Shown here: positions 23,011 through 39,158 of the stretch, one piece after another
Layout of the letters: each line of letters starts with the position of its first letter
How positions within the stretch are numbered: the stretch's first letter is position 1
NCBI GenBank assembly: GCA_030386295.1
Contig: JANQAO010000003.1
Span: 369,284 to 433,283, forward strand
Direction: 5' to 3'
Length of the DNA: 64,000 nt
Source of the DNA: Candidatus Persebacteraceae bacterium Df01
GTDB lineage: Bacteria > Pseudomonadota > Gammaproteobacteria > Tethybacterales > Persebacteraceae
Notes under the pieces: generated by a model
Databases searched by the model: none
What the model was told of the DNA's origin: nothing
What the model saw: only the letters and a program-made list of their open reading frames with translations
Made by a program: the position numbers and the translations under genes

Positions 23011-23583
23011 ATGAAAAAAACAGCATCTTTTACACAGATGAAATACGGGACCAAAGAGGACTATGAATTGTTGGAATCTCTGGAGCGCGACTATGTACGC
23101 ACCCTACCCGATCGGTTACTGGCTGCGTTGCGTGGTTTGGAACACACATTATCTGGATATCGTGTGTCACGCTTAGAACACTCTCTGCAATCAGCTACCC
23201 ACGCTTATGACGCCGGTGAAAGTGAAGAAATGGTCGTAGCCGCATTGCTACACGATATCGGCGACGAACTGGCACCTTACTCACATAGCGAAATGGCAGC
23301 AGCAATATTACGCCCCTATGTATCCGAAAAAATTCATTGGATTATTAAGTATCACGGTCTTTTTCAAATGTATTATTACGCCCACCATGTGGGTGGTGAT
23401 CGTCACGCCCGCGATCGCTTTCAAGAACATCCATTTTTTGATGAGGCAGTACGTTTTTGTGAAAAATATGACCAAAATTGTTTTGACCCGCAGTTTCAAT
23501 CAAAACCGCTGGAGTTTTTTGAGCAAATAGTGCGGCGAATATTTTCCGCGCCGCCACGTGATTTAAGTGCCACTACTGCATGA
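23011..23583 (+). CDS. HD-domain protein, possible PhnZ-like diiron oxygenase
   Basis: 190 aa, cytosolic, start chosen for the AGAGAGGA site 9 bp upstream. Visible HD-superfamily ligands: H57 (LEHSLQSA), H81-D82 (LLHDIG), H92 (YSHSEM), H115 (KYHG), D154 (KYDQ). Two extra histidines between the HD pair and the last Asp are typical of the mixed-valent diiron oxygenases PhnZ and MIOX, whereas simple HD phosphohydrolases use H-HD-D. The H57 to H81 spacing of 24 equals that in PhnZ as I remember it; later spacings differ. It overlaps the nitrilase by ATGA and starts the amine operon. Substrate unknown; a phosphohydrolase remains possible. Confidence 0.75.
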   Translation: MKKTASFTQMKYGTKEDYELLESLERDYVRTLPDRLLAALRGLEHTLSGYRVSRLEHSLQSATHAYDAGESEEMVVAALLHDIGDELAPYSHSEMAAAILRPYVSEKIHWIIKYHGLFQMYYYAHHVGGDRHARDRFQEHPFFDEAVRFCEKYDQNCFDPQFQSKPLEFFEQIVRRIFSAPPRDLSATTA

Positions 23584-24455
23584 CGACAATTACCGTTGCA
23601 GCAATACAGGCGGAACTGGGTGATACTCCCGCCGGCAATTTAGCGCGAATGGAAAGCCTAGCACGGCAGGCAGCGGGAGCGCACATTATTTTGCTTCCTG
23701 AACTTATTGAATATCCTTATTTTTGCAAAACTCAACGCGCTGAATTAATGCACTATGCCACCACCGTCACAGAAAATCGCGCCGTTACCGCGATGCAACT
23801 ATTAGCTGCCGAATTGCGCGCTGTCATTCCGGTCAGTTTTTATGAAAAGGCTGGACAAGCACTATTTAATTCTTTGGCAATCATTGACGCCGACGGTACA
23901 CTTTTAGGTGTGTACCGAAAATCTCACATTCCTGACGGCCCGGGGTATCAAGAAAAATTTTATTTTGCGCCCGGTGATACTGGCTTTCGCGTCTGGCATA
24001 CCCAGCACGGCGTTGTCGGTGCCGGCGTGTGTTGGGACCAGTGGTTTCCCGAAGCGGCACGGGCAATGGCGTTACAAGGTGCGGAGATATTGCTGTACCC
24101 AACCGCCATTGGTAGCGAACCGCAATTACCGGATTTACATTCCGCCGCACACTGGCGCACTGTCATGTGCGGTCATGCTGCCGCCAATATGATGCCGTTA
24201 GCAGCGGCCAATCGCATCGGCTGCGAGCGTCAAAATGACACTTTCGGTCACTCGGTAGAAGTGGCATTTTATGGACATTCATTTATCGCCGATGAATGCG
24301 GCTCCGTTTGCGCCGATGCTGGTAAAACAGAGGCGGTTATCACTGCTGAAGTAGACTTAGCAGCTATTGCTGATAAACGGCAGCAATGGGGAATATTTAG
24401 AGACCGTCGTCCTGACTTGTACGGCGCACTACTCACTCGAGATGGAAGCTCATGA
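23580..24455 (+). CDS. Nitrilase-family amidohydrolase, N-carbamoylputrescine amidase-like
   Basis: Carbon-nitrogen hydrolase with the family triad E41 (LLPELIEYPYF), K114 (VYRKSHIPDGPGY) and C151 (GAGVCWDQWFPE). The YRKSHIPDGPGYxEKFYF and CWDQWFPEAAR stretches are those of AguB, which hydrolyses N-carbamoylputrescine to putrescine, CO2 and ammonia; beta-ureidopropionase-like activity is the main alternative. Length is 291 aa, the AguB norm. It overlaps both neighbours by ATGA, which argues for coupled translation with the HD protein and the aminotransferase. Confidence 0.85.
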   Translation: MTTITVAAIQAELGDTPAGNLARMESLARQAAGAHIILLPELIEYPYFCKTQRAELMHYATTVTENRAVTAMQLLAAELRAVIPVSFYEKAGQALFNSLAIIDADGTLLGVYRKSHIPDGPGYQEKFYFAPGDTGFRVWHTQHGVVGAGVCWDQWFPEAARAMALQGAEILLYPTAIGSEPQLPDLHSAAHWRTVMCGHAAANMMPLAAANRIGCERQNDTFGHSVEVAFYGHSFIADECGSVCADAGKTEAVITAEVDLAAIADKRQQWGIFRDRRPDLYGALLTRDGSS

Positions 24456-25819
24456 ACAACACCAAATTAACAAGTACCGCAGCCTATCAGCAGGCAGATG
24501 CAGCACATTATCTGCATCCATTCACAGACAACGGCGCGCTAGGAAATAACGCACGTATTATCTGCCGCGCCGACGGCGTATATCTATGGGATACCGACGG
24601 TAACCAGCTACTTGATGGTATGTCTGGCTTATGGTGCGTTAACGTCGGCTACGGACGCGCCAGTATTACACAAGCAGTAGCAAAACAAATGGATAAGCTG
24701 CCATATTACAACAGCTTTTTTCAATGCGCCACGCCACCGGCAATAGAGCTAGCGCAAACACTAACCGAAGTAGCGCCTCCTGGCTTCAATCGCGTCTTTT
24801 TTGCTGGCTCCGGCTCTGAAGCCAATGATACGGTGGTACGTATGTGCCGCTATTATTGGCAATTACGCGGTCAACCACAGCGCACCGTTTTTATCTCGCG
24901 TCACAACGCCTATCACGGCAGCACCGTTGCCGGCGTTTCTCTCGGCGGCATGAAGGGCATGCACGCACAAGGTGGACCATTGATTCCCGACATTGTTCAT
25001 GTGCGGCAACCGTACTGGTACGAAGAAGGACGCGACATGACGCCGGCTGTTTTTGGTCACCAAGCAGCAACTGCCGTTGCCGAAAAAATTGAAGAAATCG
25101 GTGCCCATCGTGTGGCGGCATTTATCGGAGAGCCGGTGCAAGGTGCTGGCGGCGTTATCATTCCGCCTGATAGTTACTGGCCGGAAGTACAAAAAATATG
25201 TGCGCACTACGACATACCAATTGTCGCCGATGAGGTGATTTGCGGCTTTGGTCGACTGGGAGAGTGGTTTGGATCTCAGCGACTCAATATTGACGCCAAA
25301 ATAATGCCTATTGCTAAGGGATTAACTTCTGGTTACCTTCCCATGGGTGGAGTGCTGGTGCACGACGATATTGCCGACGTATTGATTAAAAGCGGCGAAT
25401 TCGCTCATGGCTTTACCTACAGCGGGCATCCGACATGTGCCGCAGCAGCATTGGAAAATATACGCATCTTACGTGAAGAAAATATAATCTCTCGTGTGCG
25501 CGATGAGGTTGCACCGTATTTTCAAAAACGCTGGGCTACGTTAGAATCGCACCCGCTAGTGGGAGAAACCCGCGGCATAGGAATGGTAGCGGCACTGGAA
25601 TTGGTTGCTGACAAGGCTTCTGGACAACGCTTTAATTTTGTCCCCGGCGCCGGTGTGCGTTGTCGTGAACATAGTGCCGCTGCGGGACTTATTATGCGTG
25701 CCGTGTCCGACACTATGATTGTGGCACCGCCATTGATTATTTCACCAGCACAAATAGACGAACTCGTTGCTAAAGCACGTCAAGCATTGGATGCGCTAGC
25801 AAATGAAATAATAGGATAG
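24452..25819 (+). CDS. Class III omega-aminotransferase (putrescine/taurine-pyruvate type)
   Basis: PLP enzyme of 455 aa. The PLP-phosphate site is SGSEANDTVVRM, the Asp pocket is IVADEVICGFGR, and the PLP lysine is K289 in IAKGLTSGYLPMGG. The LHPFTDN opening and overall pattern fit the pyruvate-dependent group that includes putrescine-pyruvate (SpuC) and taurine-pyruvate aminotransferases. After an N-carbamoylputrescine amidase, putrescine is the most economical substrate guess, giving 4-aminobutanal and alanine. The alanine dehydrogenase gene 47 bp downstream would regenerate pyruvate and release ammonia. Confidence 0.85.
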   Translation: MNNTKLTSTAAYQQADAAHYLHPFTDNGALGNNARIICRADGVYLWDTDGNQLLDGMSGLWCVNVGYGRASITQAVAKQMDKLPYYNSFFQCATPPAIELAQTLTEVAPPGFNRVFFAGSGSEANDTVVRMCRYYWQLRGQPQRTVFISRHNAYHGSTVAGVSLGGMKGMHAQGGPLIPDIVHVRQPYWYEEGRDMTPAVFGHQAATAVAEKIEEIGAHRVAAFIGEPVQGAGGVIIPPDSYWPEVQKICAHYDIPIVADEVICGFGRLGEWFGSQRLNIDAKIMPIAKGLTSGYLPMGGVLVHDDIADVLIKSGEFAHGFTYSGHPTCAAAALENIRILREENIISRVRDEVAPYFQKRWATLESHPLVGETRGIGMVAALELVADKASGQRFNFVPGAGVRCREHSAAAGLIMRAVSDTMIVAPPLIISPAQIDELVAKARQALDALANEIIG

Positions 25820-25866
25820 TTACTTTTTTTGTTAATCAATTCAATCAATCTAAATAAGGAGAAAAT

Positions 25867-26985
25867 ATGATTATTGGCGTCCCTAAAGAAATTAAAAATC
25901 GCGAATTTCGTGTAGGCATGACCCCCGAAGCGATTCATCAAGCAACACACCGTGGTCACAAAACGGTGGTGCAACACTTAGCTGGAGAAGGTATCGGTGT
26001 TGCGGACAACGACTATCGTGCTGCCGGCGCTAAAATCGTTAAAACGGCGCAAGAGGTATTTAAAGCCGCCGACATGATTGTTAAAGTCAAAGAACCACTA
26101 GCGAAAGAGCGACGGATGTTGCGCAAAGGTCAAACCTTGTTTACTTATCTACATTTGGCCGCCGACAAAACACTAACGCAGGAGTTGATGAAAAGCAGTG
26201 CTGTGTGCATTGCTTACGAAACCGTTACCGACGCCGCAGGACGATTGCCACTTCTGGCACCAATGTCCAAAGTTGCTGGACGATTAGCAACGCAAGCGGC
26301 AGCACACTATCTACAACGTTTTGCTGGCGGCATGGGCAAACTCATTGGTGGTGTTCCCGGCGTATTGCCGGCTAGCGTACTGGTATTAGGAGGTGGCATG
26401 GTCGGACGTAATGCCGCACGTATTGCCTTAGGCATGGGTGCAATGGTAACTATCGTAGACAAAAGCGCTGATGTGATGGATGACATTACGCGCGAGTTTA
26501 ACGGCGCAGTAACAACTTTACACTCTACCCCAGCAGCGCTTGCTGCTGCCGTAGCGCAAGCAGATGTCGTCATTGGTGGTATCTTAGTGGCAGGCGCAGC
26601 AGCTCCTAAAATTATCAGCGACAAGATGGTGAAATCCATGCGCGCCGGTAGCGTCATCGTCGACGTGGCCATTGACCAAGGCGGCTGTATTGCCACCGCT
26701 AAGCCAACCACACACGATAATCCGGTATACAAAAAACACGGCGTAATACACTATTGCGTAACCAACATGCCAGGTGCAGTACCGCACACTTCCACTTACG
26801 CGCTAAACAATGTGACTGTGCCATTGGCGTTGGAAATTGCTGACAAGGGATGGAAGCGTGCAACACAGGAAAATTTGCACTTACAAAATGGCCTCAGTGT
26901 AGTGCAGGGCGCTCTAACCTGCCCACACTCCGCAGCGTCGCTCAAAATAAAATACACCGCGGCGAAAGATATCCTAAATATTTAA
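25867..26985 (+). CDS. ald: Alanine dehydrogenase
   Basis: NAD-dependent interconversion of L-alanine with pyruvate and ammonia. The N-terminus MIIGVPKEIKNREFRVG is diagnostic, followed by VKVKEPLAKE, the AAHYLQ stretch, the nucleotide motif VLVLGGGMVGRNAA and VDVAIDQGG. Length is 372 aa, standard. AAGGAG stands 7 bp before the ATG. In this operon it most likely closes the pyruvate/alanine cycle opened by the aminotransferase, so that amino groups leave as ammonia. Confidence 0.95.
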   Translation: MIIGVPKEIKNREFRVGMTPEAIHQATHRGHKTVVQHLAGEGIGVADNDYRAAGAKIVKTAQEVFKAADMIVKVKEPLAKERRMLRKGQTLFTYLHLAADKTLTQELMKSSAVCIAYETVTDAAGRLPLLAPMSKVAGRLATQAAAHYLQRFAGGMGKLIGGVPGVLPASVLVLGGGMVGRNAARIALGMGAMVTIVDKSADVMDDITREFNGAVTTLHSTPAALAAAVAQADVVIGGILVAGAAAPKIISDKMVKSMRAGSVIVDVAIDQGGCIATAKPTTHDNPVYKKHGVIHYCVTNMPGAVPHTSTYALNNVTVPLALEIADKGWKRATQENLHLQNGLSVVQGALTCPHSAASLKIKYTAAKDILNI

Positions 26986-33059: not shown

Positions 33060-33202
33060 CTGGTTTTTAGCTTGCACTTCACGCCTTGCAATCGGACAAT
33101 TGCAAGCATTGTGAATTTTCAATTTTGGCGAAACATCCTTTTTTATATTTTTAGAATGACAATTCTCACCAAAAAATCACGCTAACTGATGCCTAAAAAA
33201 GG

Positions 33203-33275
33203 CATCCCCAAGGGGATTTGAACCCCTGTTGCCGCCGTGAAAGGGCGGTGTCCTAGGCCTCTAGACGATAGGGAC
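33203..33275 (-). tRNA. tRNA-Glu(TTC)
   Basis: A close match to enterobacterial tRNA-Glu, including GTCTAGAGGCC and the anticodon stem-loop CCGCCCTTTCACGGCGG with anticodon TTC. Acceptor arms are GTCCCTA and TGGGGAT, with a terminal G-T pair. The 3' end reads G-CCT, so the CCA is not fully encoded and must be added by nucleotidyltransferase. It lies 12 bp downstream of tRNA-Ala in the same transcript. Confidence 0.95.
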
Positions 33276-33287
33276 ATCATACTTTTG

Positions 33288-33360
<73 letters not shown>

Positions 33361-33373
33361 GAACGGAAGCCGT

Positions 33374-33402
33374 ATTGTAGGATATTTCAAAGCCTCTTAC
33401 AA
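33374..33402 (-). promoter_or_regulatory. Promoter of the tRNA-Ala/tRNA-Glu pair
   Basis: On the minus strand a TTGTAA -35 (plus 33397-33402), an exact 17-bp spacer, and a TACAAT -10 (plus 33374-33379), ending 13 bp before the first base of tRNA-Ala. It shares the TTGTAA hexamer with the promoter of the tRNA-Arg at 7.1 kb. Confidence 0.7.
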
Positions 33403-33819
33403 AACTGCATACTACCATCCGTAACGTAATATATCAGAAAGAAGATTGTGCCACTTTGAATTATAAAAAAATTGACTATGTTTATTTGCAATTAGTAGCA
33501 CAAAAGAATCCACTCATCACAACATGCCAAACACTTTTTTGTCTACTGAAATCATCAATTATAAAAAAAACGTTCGTTCGGTGTCATCCCTCTCTTCGCA
33601 ACTAAAAATAACACCGGTGACATCGCTAAAAAAATAAAAAATTCCGCAGTATTACCATTGCCGAACCATACTCAACTAAAAATCGCTTGGCAAAATTAAC
33701 AGTAACCTTGCGATAAGACAATAGACATTTCTTACTCAGCAAACGTTTTCTCAGTCACTGTAGTCAAGTTTCATAAAATATTTTATAGTGCTTTTCTCCC
33801 TCATCGGATTAAAGTTGAA

Positions 33820-33848
33820 TTGTCACGCCAATCAAAATCACTTATATT
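33820..33848 (+). promoter_or_regulatory. Promoter of the gmaS-mgs operon
   Basis: TTGTCA at 33820-33825, a 17-bp spacer and TATATT at 33843-33848. The predicted leader is about 80 nt and ends in the purine run AGAGAGAGAGGGAAA immediately before the start codon at 33936. No TGGCAC-N5-TTGCW sigma54 site was noticed, although nitrogen genes often have one. Confidence 0.55.
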
Positions 33849-33935
33849 CTTAACTTGCACTAAAGGCAAATGTGAGGTATATTTCGCCGAAACATTCCAT
33901 TACGTTATTTTCTAAAAGAGAGAGAGGGAAATGCA

Positions 33936-35408
33936 ATGACGGCATTAGACGAGCATATTTCGCAGCCTGGGCGAAATGATTTAGTTAAGCAGGTACGTGA
34001 AAAAATTGATGCCCTTGGCATTGATTACGTTTATTATCAATTTATCTCGGTGACTGGCAGAATTGTGGGCAAAGGTATCCCCTCTGACCACTGGGAGCGT
34101 ACGGCGCGAAATGGCTTTCAGTTGGTGTATGGAGCAACGGCTAATTTGTACACTGACCGCCACAATAACTACATCGGCTATGGCGCAGAATCATCGGAAC
34201 TGGTCGGCATTCCTGACCCAGAAACTTTTGTACAATTGCCGTGGGATAAGCGCGTGGCTCGAGTATTTTGCACCTGCTTTCGCAATCGAGAAGAAAGTGA
34301 AGACCCAGGCGGTTTGCTGGCATCGGATTGTCGCGGCAATTTTCGCCGTATGCATCAGGATTTTGAGCAGGAGCACGGCATGCATTTGCGCTCCGGCATG
34401 GAACCCGAAATGATGTGGCTCAAGCGCGGTGAAAATGGTCTGCCCGACGGGGGCTACACCAAGCCCAATTGCTATCACATTGACCAATTTGAAGCGTTGC
34501 GGCCGATATTTCTGCGGGTAATAGAATATGCTCGCGCAATGGGACTAGACATGGTGCAAGGCGATCACGAAGATGCGCCAGGACAGTTAGAACTTAATTT
34601 TGAGTTCGATGATGCCTTACGCACCTGTGACCGATTGACTACTTATCGACAAATTTGCGCTCAAGTAGCACGTGAAAATGACATCATCGCCTGTTTCATG
34701 CCGAAACCTTTTATGGGAGTCTCAGCTTCCGGCTGCCACCAAAATTTATCACTGTGGCGCGGTGGTAAAGATGAAATTAACATATTAGGGCATAAGACCT
34801 TGCCGGGCATGGAAGGTGCCTACGCGCATCGCAAGGGCGGCGAAAATCTGTTTATGCCCGACCCTGCCGTAGATGCAAAAAAACCGGGGCCGGTAGGGTT
34901 GCAATGTATCGGTGGTGTGGTGGAGCATTTACCCGCATTAACAGCAATTGGTTGCTCAACGGTAAATTCCTATCGTCGCTTGTGGGATACAGGTTTTTGG
35001 GCACCTGTGTATTCGGATTGGGGTTATCAAAATCGTACCTGCGGTTTGCGCGTTTCGGCGCCAGGACGATTTGAGTATCGTGCAGTAGATTCGGCAGTAA
35101 ATCCATATTTGATGTCCTCGGCGGTGCTGGCTTCTTTTAGCGACGGTATCAAAAATAACATGGACCCAGGTGAGCCAGAATCGCGTAACATTTATGAAGC
35201 TATAGAACAAGGTAAAAAAGTTAAAAAATTACCTCTTACTCTTGGTGAAGCTTTGGATCGCTTATCCGAGGATGACGTGATTAAAGACAACGCATTACCG
35301 GAAGAGATGTATCGCGTGTTCATGCATTACAAGCGCAACGAGTGGGAAACATTTTTGGCGACAGTTACCCATTGGGATTTGGAAACCTACTGGGATTGTT
35401 TGCCCTAA
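33936..35408 (+). CDS. gmaS: Glutamine synthetase-family ligase, probable gamma-glutamylmethylamide synthetase
   Basis: ATP-dependent ligase of the GS superfamily, 490 aa. Conserved metal and nucleotide blocks: SGMEPEMMW, QGDHEDAPGQLELNF, ASGCHQNLSLW, NRTCGLRVSAPGRFEYR. It lacks the adenylylation-loop pattern of ordinary GlnA. It is directly followed by three genes homologous to N-methylglutamate synthase subunits, so the likely reaction is glutamate + methylamine + ATP to gamma-glutamylmethylamide. The same gene arrangement in rhizobia is called glnT-glxBCD, where the physiological substrate is less certain. The ATG at 33936 follows a long GA-rich ribosome site; another ATG at 33931 is out of frame. 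Confidence 0.82.
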   Translation: MTALDEHISQPGRNDLVKQVREKIDALGIDYVYYQFISVTGRIVGKGIPSDHWERTARNGFQLVYGATANLYTDRHNNYIGYGAESSELVGIPDPETFVQLPWDKRVARVFCTCFRNREESEDPGGLLASDCRGNFRRMHQDFEQEHGMHLRSGMEPEMMWLKRGENGLPDGGYTKPNCYHIDQFEALRPIFLRVIEYARAMGLDMVQGDHEDAPGQLELNFEFDDALRTCDRLTTYRQICAQVARENDIIACFMPKPFMGVSASGCHQNLSLWRGGKDEINILGHKTLPGMEGAYAHRKGGENLFMPDPAVDAKKPGPVGLQCIGGVVEHLPALTAIGCSTVNSYRRLWDTGFWAPVYSDWGYQNRTCGLRVSAPGRFEYRAVDSAVNPYLMSSAVLASFSDGIKNNMDPGEPESRNIYEAIEQGKKVKKLPLTLGEALDRLSEDDVIKDNALPEEMYRVFMHYKRNEWETFLATVTHWDLETYWDCLP

Positions 35409-35441
35409 TCTACAACACTAAACTAAATAAGGAAATATATT

Positions 35442-36380
35442 ATGTGCGGAATTGCAGGATTAATCCATCGCGGGGAAAGTGCCGATATAGGCGACGAAAT
35501 GACCCGGATGTTGCTAGCACTCAAGCATCGCGGACCGGACTCTACCGGTTATGCCCTTTATGGCGACGGCACTGACGACGATTATGTGATGCGAGTTAAA
35601 CTAGCTGAACAAGCCGACTTACAGAGCGGTTTTGGCATTCACGAGCGTATTCGTGTCCGCCGCGAGGAAGTAATAAACCGCTTGCAGGAGCGCGAGGTTG
35701 AAATCGTACAAAACGAAGACGCCACCGAATATGCGATGCGGGTGCATTTCAAAACTAACGGCGACACACGACATCTAGCCAATTATCTGGAAGACATAGA
35801 TGGCGTAGAAATTTTATCGCTAGGACACTGCTTGGAATTAATTAAAGATTTGGGCGATGCAGATGATGTGAGCAAGCAGTACGGATTGCGCAAATTCCGT
35901 GGCACCCATGCTATCGGTCACACCCGTATGGCAACGGAGTCCGATGTGGACATTCGCTCTGCTCATCCGTATTGGGCTTATCCTTATGCTGATATTTCCG
36001 TCGTTCACAATGGTCAATTAACAAATTACTGGACAATGCGACGGGCACTGGAACGGTGTGGGCATCGCTTTATGTCTAACTGCGACAGCGAACTGTTAGC
36101 AGTATATATCGCTAATCGCACAGATGCCGGAGACGATTTGGAATCCGCCCTACAGCGTTCAGTAGAAGAATTAGACGGCGTATTCACTTACATAGTCGCG
36201 ACATCTAACGCTCTCGGTATGGCCAAAGATGTCATGGCAGCTAAGCCGATGGTATTGTATGAAAGCGATACTTTTATCGCTTTGGCGTCGGAAGAGGTAG
36301 CAATTCGCTCCATTTTTCCACACGAAATAAATTCTTATGACCCCTACGAAGGAGAAGTAAAGATATGGCAGAGGAATTAA
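35442..36380 (+). CDS. mgsA: N-methylglutamate synthase subunit A (class II amidotransferase)
   Basis: Ntn-type glutaminase domain starting MCGIAGLIHRG, with the catalytic Cys exposed as residue 2 after Met removal. ALKHRGPDSTGY, IGHTRMATES and SVVHNGQLTNYW are the usual class II blocks. A charged insertion (about residues 60-130) separates the first two blocks. Length is 312 aa. Known homologues are MgsA and GlxB; in the complex this subunit releases methylamine or ammonia from the gamma-amide and channels it to the synthase. It overlaps the next gene by 16 bp. Confidence 0.85.
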   Translation: MCGIAGLIHRGESADIGDEMTRMLLALKHRGPDSTGYALYGDGTDDDYVMRVKLAEQADLQSGFGIHERIRVRREEVINRLQEREVEIVQNEDATEYAMRVHFKTNGDTRHLANYLEDIDGVEILSLGHCLELIKDLGDADDVSKQYGLRKFRGTHAIGHTRMATESDVDIRSAHPYWAYPYADISVVHNGQLTNYWTMRRALERCGHRFMSNCDSELLAVYIANRTDAGDDLESALQRSVEELDGVFTYIVATSNALGMAKDVMAAKPMVLYESDTFIALASEEVAIRSIFPHEINSYDPYEGEVKIWQRN

Positions 36381-37183
36381 CCGGCGGCGCTCTTATCGGG
36401 CGCAACCAACAAATCTTTTTCAATGCTGAAGCCGGTGATAATCGTTTTGTATATCCCGACTCGGCGGAAGTGGATTTTTCCAATAAGGCAGCTTTTGACG
36501 CTTCTGATATGGATACCACGAAAATCAATAAAAAATTACGGGCATTAATAAGTGATGGTCATGGGCATATCACGATTAAAAACCCGGGTGCTAAACACTC
36601 ACTGGCGGTGGGGATTTTGAATCGCTTGCAGCTGGAAATTGATGGTAGTTTGGGATACTTTGGATGCGGTCTCAATGACGGTCCTACCGTACGCATATCA
36701 GGACGCGTAGGTTGGTCATGCGCCGAAAATATGATGTCAGGCGTCGTAGAAATTGCTAAAAATGCAGGTTCCACATTTGGTGCAGCATTGCGTGGCGGAG
36801 ATTTAGTGTGCCACGGCGATGTTGGCGGTCGTACCGGTATCTGCATGAAAGGCGGCACAATTATTGTTGGCGGTCGTACCGGCGCATTTTCTGGTTTTAT
36901 GATGCAACGAGGTCGTATGATTGTTTTAGGCGATGCCGGTGGAAATCTAGGCGATACCATGTATGACGGTATCATTTACGTTGGAGGAAAGATAGACAAC
37001 CTTGGAGTAGATGCCGTAGAGGGCGAAATGACTGATGCCGACTGTGCATGGCTGCGCCGTAAACTATCACTGTATGGCATGGACGCACCCAACGGTATTG
37101 AAAACATGACTAAAATCGTTTCCGGCAAACAGTTGTGGAATTATGACAATCTAGAGCCGACAGAAAAGAAAATCGTGCTTTAA
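36365..37183 (+). CDS. mgsB: N-methylglutamate synthase subunit B (GXGXG-domain protein)
   Basis: 272 aa resembling the C-terminal GXGXG beta-helix of the large glutamate synthase subunit. Repeating glycine-rich turns are visible (CHGDVGGRTGICMKGG, IIVGGRTGAFSGFMMQRG, VLGDAGGNLGDTMYDG). In GltB this domain is structural and positions the ammonia tunnel. Homologues are MgsB and GlxC. It overlaps mgsA and lies 22 bp before mgsC; the three split parts correspond to one GltB chain. Confidence 0.85.
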   Translation: MAEELTGGALIGRNQQIFFNAEAGDNRFVYPDSAEVDFSNKAAFDASDMDTTKINKKLRALISDGHGHITIKNPGAKHSLAVGILNRLQLEIDGSLGYFGCGLNDGPTVRISGRVGWSCAENMMSGVVEIAKNAGSTFGAALRGGDLVCHGDVGGRTGICMKGGTIIVGGRTGAFSGFMMQRGRMIVLGDAGGNLGDTMYDGIIYVGGKIDNLGVDAVEGEMTDADCAWLRRKLSLYGMDAPNGIENMTKIVSGKQLWNYDNLEPTEKKIVL

Positions 37184-37205
37184 AAAGGTAAGAAAAGAGA
37201 GAACC

Positions 37206-38567
37206 ATGACAAAAAACAAAAATCCTGCCGCGCCGGCCGAAAGCGCGACGCATATTTTAGGGAAAAGCGCGGTCTTTACACCGGATGTTATTAACGACAT
37301 TCACGTCAAGGCCGAGCTGGGGCGCTATCGGATGCGCGGTTTCTCTATGTTTAAGCAAATTCCTAACTGGGATGATTTGACTTTTTTACCTGGTACTTTA
37401 ACGCGCTTTGTGATTGAAGGTTATCGCGAGAAATGTCTGACCCGCACTATCCTTGGTCCTAAAGCTAAACGCCCATTAGAACTGGATATTCCTGTCTATA
37501 TCACCGGCATGAGCTTTGGTGCTCTATCGTATGAAGCAAAAATTGCTCTAGCGCGTGGTGCAACAATGGCCGGAAGCGCCACTTGCTCAGGTGAAGGTGG
37601 GATGATTCCCGATGAACGTCGTTATTCCACCAAGTGGTTTTATCAATGTATTCAATCACGTTACGGCTTCAACCCTCATCATTTACAAATGGCTGACGCT
37701 TGTGAATTTTTTATCGGACAGGGTTGCAAAGTAGGATTGGGCGGGCACTTGATGGGACAAAAAGTCACTGACCAAGTGGCAGAAATGCGTTCACTGCCAG
37801 CAGGGATTGATCAACGCTCACCAGCACGACATCCGGATTGGCTGGGACCTGACGATTTAGCACTCAAGATTAATGAAGTTCGTGAGGCAACGGATTGGGA
37901 AATTCCCATTCAGCTAAAACTCGGATCAGCTCGGGTGTACGACGATGTCCGCATGGCGGCAAAAACCGGTCCGGATATGATTTATATAGACGGAATGGAA
38001 GGTGGCACAGGTGCTGGACCACATCTAGCTACAGAAGAAACTGGGGTACCGGGTATCGCGGCCATTCGCCAAGCAAGAAAAGCGCTGGATGACGTCGGAA
38101 AAACGGGTGAAATCAGTTTAGTATATGCTGGTGGCATTCGCAACGGTGGCGACATAGCCAAAGCATTGGCGCTGGGAGCAGACGCTGTCGCTATCGGTCA
38201 TGCCGCACTCATTGCGCTCAACTGCAACAAAAACACCGCAGAATCGGATTATGAATCGGAAATCGGCGTAAAAGCTGGTAATTGTTATCACTGCCACACT
38301 GGTCGTTGCCCTGTCGGCATAGCCACACAAGACCCAGAATTACGCAAACGCCTAGATCCAGATGAAGCAGCAATACGCGTGTACAACTTTTTACACACAT
38401 TAGCGATTGAATGCCAAATGATGGCACGTGCCTGTGGAAAAACTAATGTACACAGCTTGGAGCCAGAAGATTTAGCAGCATTAACAATGGAGGCGTCAGC
38501 GATGGCAATGGTTCCACTAGCAGGAACACAACACACGGTAGGTCGCCCAGATATGAATCGCTATTAA
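37206..38567 (+). CDS. mgsC: N-methylglutamate synthase subunit C (FMN/Fe-S glutamate synthase domain)
   Basis: 453-aa flavoprotein homologous to the central and FMN domains of glutamate synthase. YITGMSFGALSYEAK and SGEGGMIPDERRYS bind FMN and 2-oxoglutarate; IQLKLGSARVYDDV and IDGMEGGTGAGP complete the barrel. The cysteine cluster NCYHCHTGRCPVGIA matches the 3Fe-4S ligands. The expected role is reductive transfer of methylamine onto 2-oxoglutarate to give N-methylglutamate. No N-methylglutamate dehydrogenase (mgdABCD) genes are in the window. Confidence 0.87.
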   Translation: MTKNKNPAAPAESATHILGKSAVFTPDVINDIHVKAELGRYRMRGFSMFKQIPNWDDLTFLPGTLTRFVIEGYREKCLTRTILGPKAKRPLELDIPVYITGMSFGALSYEAKIALARGATMAGSATCSGEGGMIPDERRYSTKWFYQCIQSRYGFNPHHLQMADACEFFIGQGCKVGLGGHLMGQKVTDQVAEMRSLPAGIDQRSPARHPDWLGPDDLALKINEVREATDWEIPIQLKLGSARVYDDVRMAAKTGPDMIYIDGMEGGTGAGPHLATEETGVPGIAAIRQARKALDDVGKTGEISLVYAGGIRNGGDIAKALALGADAVAIGHAALIALNCNKNTAESDYESEIGVKAGNCYHCHTGRCPVGIATQDPELRKRLDPDEAAIRVYNFLHTLAIECQMMARACGKTNVHSLEPEDLAALTMEASAMAMVPLAGTQHTVGRPDMNRY

Positions 38568-38591
38568 AAATTATTCAAAGAGAGATTAACA

Positions 38592-38933
38592 ATGACAAAT
38601 GCAAATTCTGGAAAAGAGCCTATTGTTGGTTACCGCTACGATGTTAACCTATTGCCTGACATGGATATGCTCACCCCTTTTTTAAAGGAATATTTAAAAA
38701 TCATGAACTGGAAAGATCTGAATTGGCTGGAGGACGTGCATATGGGTTATGAAGAAGGGCGCCCTGCGGTATTTGATCGTAATATCAATGGCTGGGTGAC
38801 AGTCCCTGAAGGTATGGACTTGCCCGACAACCAGCAAGAGCGCGACATGATCGCACGCGAATTGCTCGTAAAGTTTCAAATGTCAGAACGTCATCCGTTA
38901 GTAGCTCTCAAAAAAGCCTACGGCAAAGTATAA
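38592..38933 (+). CDS. Small uncharacterised protein of the methylamine cluster
   Basis: 113 aa, no signal peptide, no membrane segment, no cysteines. Rich in acidic and aromatic residues, with a PFLKEYLKIMNWKDLNWLED core and a basic tail ending KKAYGKV. An AGAGAG ribosome site like those of mgsC and gmaS precedes the ATG, 24 bp after the mgsC stop, so it is the fifth gene of the operon. I do not recognise the family. Possible roles are a complex-assembly or regulatory partner of the synthase, by position only. Confidence 0.8.
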   Translation: MTNANSGKEPIVGYRYDVNLLPDMDMLTPFLKEYLKIMNWKDLNWLEDVHMGYEEGRPAVFDRNINGWVTVPEGMDLPDNQQERDMIARELLVKFQMSERHPLVALKKAYGKV

Positions 38934-39045: not shown

Positions 39046-39144
39046 GTGGCGGGTCTCCCCGCATGGCACGATGAAAACCGGGTCAGATTCGGAAGAAAGC
39101 AGCCCTAATTATCCTCTGCCAGTGCCGGGGAAATGACTCGCCGC
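39046..39144 (+). ncRNA. ffs: 4.5S SRP RNA
   Basis: About 99 nt. The conserved domain IV tetraloop region reads CCGGGTCAGATTCGGAAGAA followed by AGCAGCC, matching the Ffh-binding helix of small bacterial SRP RNAs. The outer stem pairs GTGGCGGGTC (39046-39055) with GACTCGCCGC (39135-39144). Together with Ffh it targets nascent membrane proteins. Placement directly before dnaX is seen in many bacteria. Confidence 0.93.
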
Positions 39145-39158
39145 TTAGTTTTCAACAT

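Follow-up and report, generated by a model that had tools for sequence, protein, structure and literature searches.

Layout of the five-gene cassette

The subject of this analysis is a cassette of five genes, here called GS', A', B', C' and S, in a 64,000-nucleotide stretch (the window) of contig JANQAO010000003.1 of Candidatus Persebacteraceae bacterium Df01, which we present as a candidate system for the use of dimethylamine (DMA). An original prediction made from the DNA letters had read these genes as a methylamine operon, with gmaS first, the three genes of an N-methylglutamate synthase (mgsABC) next, and a fifth gene without assignment. The cassette is a real gene set: the five co-directional genes at 33936-38933 have the predicted coordinates, lie on the plus strand, are open throughout and near-contiguous, and the A' and B' reading frames overlap by 16 bases (Table 1). 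A', B' and C' follow the order of class II amidotransferase, GXGXG protein and flavin mononucleotide (FMN) glutamate-synthase protein by which MgsABC is recognised. Upstream of GS', a promoter scan returned a promoter-like match at 33820-33848 (plus strand); promoter-like sites were not above those in shuffled sequences and are thus within chance.

Table 1. Features of the cassette and its borders, in window positions
Feature	Position	Strand	Description
GS'	33936-35408	+	490 aa; PF00120 (Gln-synt_C); predicted gamma-glutamyl-dialkylamide (dimethylamide) synthetase, separate clade
A'	35442-36380	+	312 aa; PF13522/PF13537 (GATase_6/7); class II glutamine-amidotransferase-type subunit, MgsA paralogue
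B'	36365-37183	+	272 aa; PF01493 (GXGXG); MgsB paralogue
C'	37206-38567	+	453 aa; PF01645 (Glu_synthase); FMN glutamate-synthase-type subunit, MgsC paralogue; CxxCxxxxC motif
S	38592-38933	+	113 aa; no Pfam domain; predicted further subunit of the enzyme formed by A', B' and C'
Intergenic stretch before GS'	33361-33935	.	575 bp; likely promoter region
tRNA-Ala/tRNA-Glu pair	33201-33360	-	5' boundary of the cassette
Small signal recognition particle RNA	39048-39145		3' boundary of the cassette, followed by a dnaX-like open reading frame (ORF; named by reading of the ORF)

Conservation of the cassette and protein S

Protein S was used as query on a genome collection, in which 374 stretches encode relatives; 80 of these were kept and are the basis of all locus counts. 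S lies immediately downstream of C' in 79 of the 80 loci, and in the exception (L037) just 67 bases precede S. The complete five-gene order was found in 57 loci; the remaining ones were truncated by contig ends or only partly recovered by the search. Mean identities to the window proteins were 85.3% for C' (79 loci), 78.8% for S (80), 70.7% for GS' (57), 68.7% for B' (70) and 68.0% for A' (65), so that among the five proteins S is second only to C' in conservation. In addition, an alignment of 70 S sequences contains 51 invariant columns. Judged from its 374 relatives, its mean identity and these invariant columns, S is a real gene and represents a new, very conserved family. The conservation suspected for the fifth gene is thus not confined to one genome, and its co-occurrence with the synthase genes extends to the other genomes as well. 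According to the record titles, carriers belong to Gammaproteobacteria, Rhodobacteraceae, Rhodovibrionaceae, Kiloniellaceae, SAR116, SAR324, Gemmatimonadetes, Latescibacterota and others. Among cultured bacteria, Methyloligella halotolerans and Pseudaestuariivita atlantica carry the cassette and have tdm but not dmm; Limibaculum sp. NKW23 has the cassette as well.

S had no match in Pfam and NCBIfam, none in the plasmids searched, and a best match of only E 0.024 in a profile search against PDB sequences. Its structure model reached a predicted local distance difference test score (pLDDT) of 80.6, with residues 1-17 below 50. The fold search of this model gave no Foldseek match at E<=0.001 and a best VIA Z of 2.2, and hence no clear PDB fold match, with the limit that a match could have been missed. 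The fixed place after C' and the strong conservation suggest that S may be an obligate partner of C'. As an ORF resembling a 2Fe-2S ferredoxin (by eye) comes right after S in locus L186, one might also guess that S docks an electron donor. A further family, c8 (about 190-230 aa; e.g. L009:8381-8974), stands beside the cassette in 38 of the 80 loci and is often encoded on the other strand; the one member tested had no Pfam or NCBIfam match.

The ligase GS'

GS' is 27% identical to the gamma-glutamylmethylamide synthetase (GMAS) of the Df01 genome itself. Against the GlnT/GMAS model TIGR03105 it scores 298.6 bits, under the cut-off of 469.6, compared to 655.4 bits for the Df01 GMAS. In a tree of 51 rows, in which long branches were flagged, GS' falls in a clade with 100/100 support together with plasmid and actinobacterial glutamine synthetase (GS)-like proteins, outside GMAS/GlnT and outside GlnA. 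The separate clade and the sub-cut-off score rule out that GS' is gmaS.

To compare the active sites, residue roles in RhGmaS (amine pocket, catalysis, Asp50' and Glu flap) were taken from the available excerpts of PMC7948447, and the correspondence with GS' was obtained via an alignment of the Df01 GMAS to the RhGmaS chain, with the numbering offset derived by hand. RhGmaS K30', Y147, Q175, D177, E179, E186, N188 and R312 correspond to GS' K46, Y180, Q208, D210, E212, E219, N221 and R367, and all 58 GS' rows and all 17 GMAS rows agree at these eight positions of the amine pocket or catalysis. The Glu of the Glu flap is replaced by Trp in GS' and GMAS alike (W355 in all 58 GS'), and the ammonium-site Asp50' by Val or Ala (V64 in all 58 GS'). 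The GlnA of Df01 differs from both; an ordinary glutamine synthetase is ruled out by these residues. The clean contrast between GS' and GMAS is at RhGmaS Asn176, which is Gly209 in all GS'.

Because the amine pocket of GMAS is kept and both Asp50' and the Glu-flap Glu are gone, we expect GS' to join an alkylamine to glutamate. Of the assignment as gmaS, the GMAS-type amine pocket stood, whereas identity, model score and clade spoke against it; nor does GS' fall among the ordinary glutamine synthetases. The excerpts of PMC7948447 give Km values of RhGmaS of 27 µM for monomethylamine (MMA) and 16 mM for DMA. Formation of gamma-glutamyl-dimethylamide would thus be chemically possible but poor in GMAS, and a dedicated enzyme would be needed.

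Outside the cassette, GS' is most closely related to GS-like ligases on plasmids of Paracoccus TOH, Ruegeria, Gordonia, Rhodococcus and Streptomyces, at 39-52% identity and in the same 100/100 clade. No A'B'C'S set is annotated beside them (one record is without annotation), and several stand next to a P450 or a second GS-like gene. On the Paracoccus TOH and Ruegeria plasmids (L082, L083), a GS' relative (51.6%) lies in tandem with a divergent GS-like gene; amidotransferase, P450 or aldehyde dehydrogenase genes adjoin the pair, which perhaps belongs to a different alkylamine pathway.

The synthase subunits A', B' and C'

The three synthase-type subunits are related to MgsABC of the same genome at 33% (A' to MgsA), 40% (B' to MgsB) and 51% (C' to MgsC) identity. 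The catalytic Cys2 of A' is present in all 59 relatives that cover the position. C' and MgsC form sister clades, each with 100/100 support, and C' does not lie within the clade of GMAS-linked MgsC. Genes two to four thus have the domain types and order of an N-methylglutamate synthase, as was predicted, but they are paralogues and not MgsABC themselves.

A further distinction is a CxxCxxxxC motif in C' (Cys360, 363 and 368), which may bind a [3Fe-4S] cluster as in glutamate synthases. Its three cysteines are invariant in 79 relatives, and GltB of Df01 has cysteines of a CxxxxxC type at the same position. The motif is missing in MgsC of Df01 and in most of the aligned GMAS-linked MgsC, a few of which keep cysteines (e.g. 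L145, L161, L163). Its loss in canonical GMAS-linked MgsC (L105:14409-15716, L160, L162, L158) and its retention in C' may reflect a difference in redox wiring. With GltB/GOGAT (glutamate synthase), the cassette enzyme shares the three parts (amidotransferase, FMN domain and GXGXG) and the Cys motif, which is like that of the Df01 GltB. It differs in being encoded by three separate genes, in lacking a GltD-type partner and in being paired with an amine ligase without ammonium site.

A second alternative to MgsABC was seen in Gammaproteobacteria and others (L180, L181, L182, L183, L184). It consists of an A-type amidotransferase, an FMN-domain protein of 650-658 aa that is 40-42% identical to C', and a third protein of 803-848 aa. 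GMAS follows them in several cases, and the set is often near the cassette, Tmm and Tdm.

Methylamine genes elsewhere in the genome

The Df01 genome (1.53 Mb, 98.3% complete) encodes four GS-type genes, including a GlnA-type GS, and has a 1512-aa open frame that contains a Glu_synthase domain, in keeping with GltB. Contig C1 carries GMAS (655 bits, above the GlnT cut-off), an Amt-type transporter ORF, MgsA, MgsB and MgsC. An mgdABCD/soxBDAG-like operon is found at L109, with a SoxB-type subunit that is 53-56% identical to plasmid subunits near dmm or gmaS. The genome also encodes a trimethylamine N-oxide (TMAO) demethylase, Tdm (1187.8 bits against an equivalog cut-off of 1100). A second soxDA-type pair, cut by the contig end, lies at L111:6070-8939 and is a possible partner for a DMA route.

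The original prediction had noted that mgdABCD is absent from the vicinity of the cassette, and indeed no homologue is present in the 64-kb window. The oxidation step that it considered missing is available elsewhere, as a genome-wide search recovered both the mgdABCD-like operon and the Amt-type transporter ORF. It had left a choice between a split pathway and another purpose. A split MMA pathway is ruled out by the full canonical gmaS-mgsABC and mgdABCD-like set, and another purpose is the better option. With a separate gmaS-amt-mgsABC in the same genome, the description as the methylamine operon does not hold, and the cassette is an extra system. Likewise, GMAS orthologues occur inside cassette loci L005, L017, L023 and L068 and near the cassette in L178 and L185.

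Altogether, the cassette resembles gmaS-mgsABC in combining a GS-fold amine ligase with three subunits whose domain types and order match, in the GMAS pocket residues kept in GS' and in its one-carbon (C1)-transfer neighbours. It differs in the separate clades of GS' and C' (27% and 51%), in the CxxCxxxxC of C', which the Df01 MgsC lacks, and in the extra S and the linked flavin adenine dinucleotide (FAD) oxidoreductase DAO'. Moreover, Df01 and many other genomes have it in addition to gmaS-mgsABC and not in its place.

Distribution of Tdm and dmmA

The cassette genomes tested (n=51) are those of the 50 best-scoring of the 80 kept loci plus Df01; they are mostly metagenome-assembled genomes of unstated completeness and are neither random nor independent. 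As background, 397 Pseudomonadota genomes were drawn, Df01 included (396 others). Tdm was called at E<=1e-150, with the equivalog cut-off of 1100 bits as a stricter limit, and dmmA with a single hidden Markov model (HMM), NF041259, at a cut-off of 60 bits.

Tdm was detected in 36 of the 51 cassette genomes (33 above cut-off) and in 29 of the 397 background genomes; when Df01 is left aside, 35 of 50 cassette genomes compare with 28 of 396 others (Fisher 4e-23). No dmmA exceeded the cut-off in any of the 51 cassette genomes, two matches of 21-22 bits containing an internal stop. Of the 28 background Tdm genomes, 26 have dmmA, and it is missing from G062 and G121. Among genomes with Tdm above cut-off, dmmA is present in all 25 without the cassette and in none of the 34 with it (Fisher 3e-17; relatedness and habitat ignored). 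This exclusion has no exception among the Alpha-, Gamma- and SAR324 genomes tested. Within the background draw, S was found in Df01 and G062 only (1 of 396 others), and G062, which carries the cassette, is the only genome besides Df01 that has Tdm above cut-off and no dmmA.

The Df01 genome matches neither NF041259 nor PF11927 (HODM alpha-like). PF11927 genes were found in 11 of the 51 cassette genomes (L164-L174). As no DmmA, B or D homologue is near any of them (7.6-11 kb each), they were not counted as Dmm and were rejected as counter-examples. In G121 (L179:5859-12018), a Tdm paralogue below the cut-off stands beside different transporter-like genes of its own, and perhaps has another substrate.

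Gene neighbourhoods of the cassette

The placement of the cassette was then described at the level of individual loci. In SAR324 locus L185, DAO', c8 and S-C'-B'-A'-GS'-Tdm follow each other, the latter six on one strand, with GMAS-MgsA-MgsB-MgsC on the other. In L186, Tdm precedes GS' (in two pieces) and the rest of the cassette up to S, and Tmo-type genes, MgsCBA-GMAS and an Amt-type gene are close by. A 17-kb stretch of G062 contains the cassette, Tmm and Tdm. A Tdm, Tmm or Tmo-type gene is in the flank of 30 of the 80 loci (union counted by hand), MgdC-type genes are in 7, and no Dmm homologue was found in the 80. Ammonium/methylammonium-type transporter genes are near the cassette in 18 loci, folD in 11 and fhs in 11; in alphaproteobacterial loci, nitrilase (19 of 80) and class I amidotransferase genes (7 of 80) adjoin it.

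In 32 of the 51 loci with at least 1.6 kb of upstream sequence, DAO' is the gene immediately before GS', in the same orientation. It was found in 44 of 54 genomes, including Df01 (C2:91529-92830). There it adjoins a Rieske-oxygenase-like ORF (L190:8310-10840, by eye), not the cassette. Within the window, carbon-nitrogen hydrolase-like, aminotransferase-like and alanine-dehydrogenase-like ORFs stand in a row at 23011-26982 (by eye), possibly another amine nitrogen route.

Proposed dimethylamine pathway and alternatives

Considered together with the ligase step, the cassette is probably a DMA-using counterpart of gmaS-mgsABC and a non-homologous replacement of Dmm. DMA is proposed as the substrate because of the enrichment of Tdm, the replacement of dmmA, the placement of loci beside Tdm, the presence of canonical GMAS elsewhere and the amine pocket of GS'; the linkage of DAO' and the nearby amine-transporter, folD and fhs genes also point to it. 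We give about even odds that the genes make up a complete DMA route without a monooxygenase. It would consist of GS', DAO' and a synthase of four subunits (A'B'C'S), S being new and obligatory, and would serve SAR324, SAR116, many Gammaproteobacteria of the sea and related bacteria in which tdm occurs without dmm. The reactions of this pathway are inferred from the paralogues; the genes, their order, clades, pocket residues and the dmmA pattern are the observed part.

In the proposed pathway, DMA would come from Tdm activity or from seawater, and GS' would join it to glutamate at the expense of adenosine triphosphate (ATP), giving gamma-glutamyl-N,N-dimethylamide. A' would hydrolyse this amide, and the released DMA would be channelled to the FMN site of C', with B' as scaffold and S as extra subunit. 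There, DMA would be joined to the alpha carbon of 2-oxoglutarate/glutamate to yield N,N-dimethylglutamate. DAO' would remove one methyl group to give N-methylglutamate, which MgdABCD would convert to glutamate and a C1 unit (formaldehyde or methylene-tetrahydrofolate). The cassette would thereby occupy the same metabolic place as DmmDABC, a heme-dependent oxidative N-demethylase that consumes the DMA made by Tdm, and Tdm genomes carry one or the other. The two systems share no homologous gene, and the predicted chemistry of the cassette is glutamylation and FAD oxidation, not that of a heme monooxygenase.

Several observations weigh against this reading. Tdm was not detected at the threshold in 15 of the 51 cassette genomes, and a canonical MgsC or third-type synthase is present in about 35 of 51 (counted by hand) and thus not in all. 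The absence of dmmA rests on one HMM, the same that matched 26 of 28 controls. G121, with a sub-cut-off Tdm (1023 bits) and neither dmmA nor S, is an exception to the looser rule. The search for DAO' found none in 10 of 54 genomes, and in Df01 it is unlinked to the cassette. Finally, a different small amine from the same pathway could be the substrate.

An unlikely alternative is that the cassette acts on some other small amine, secondary or primary, from the breakdown of marine osmolytes, e.g. from relatives of choline, betaine or taurine, and that the link to Tdm and Dmm reflects shared habitat and lineage. This would accommodate the cassette genomes without detected Tdm, the nitrilase and amidotransferase neighbours and the nearest plasmid relatives of GS', which stand in other clusters without A'B'C'S. 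It does not sit well with the Tdm, Tmm or Tmo-type genes in the locus flanks, nor with a dmmA exclusion that is complete across three groups of genomes. Slightly less likely still, the cassette could be a second, parallel MMA system, whose alternative versions of GMAS and N-methylglutamate synthase would serve under different conditions. The shared amine pocket, the clear paralogy and gene order of A'B'C' and MgsABC, and about 14 of 51 cassette genomes without another MgsC-like synthase (counted by hand) are consistent with this. Against it stand the second synthase of Df01 and of about 35 of the 51 genomes, and GMAS within the cassette locus in four cases and adjoining the cassette in SAR324. 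Moreover, redundancy fails to explain why Tdm genomes with the cassette lack dmmA and those without it have it.

Very improbable, in our view, is an ammonia-assimilating glutamine synthetase/glutamate synthase pair. The overall GS/GOGAT-like domain make-up and the glutamate-synthase-type Cys motif of C' agree with it, but the ammonium-binding Asp and the Glu-flap Glu are gone in every GS', and Df01 already has a GlnA-type GS and a GltB-like frame. The use of DMA is the reading that we prefer.

Biological meaning

In the available excerpts of Lidbury et al. 2017 (PMC5520151), Dmm was identified, and the absence of dmmDABC from SAR11 and from abundant marine Gamma- and Deltaproteobacteria was called intriguing. 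A DMA bottleneck was proposed there, which may explain DMA-derived marine aerosol. Excerpts of two further papers describe a trimethylamine cluster with dmm in R. pomeroyi (PMC13390433) and a SAR11 glxBCD-glnT interpreted as N-methylglutamate synthase/GMAS (PMC3160333). A literature search, with most subscription papers and preprints outside its scope, found nothing on gamma-glutamyl-dimethylamide or dimethylglutamate in bacterial amine use, on an alternative DMA pathway, or on Methyloligella with dimethylamine.

If the proposed role is true, the cassette would fill part of the published DMA bottleneck gap, SAR11 not included, and dmm counts would underestimate the use of DMA in the sea. S or GS' could then serve as the missing marker gene for DMA use, and the new protein family S would gain a concrete, testable role.

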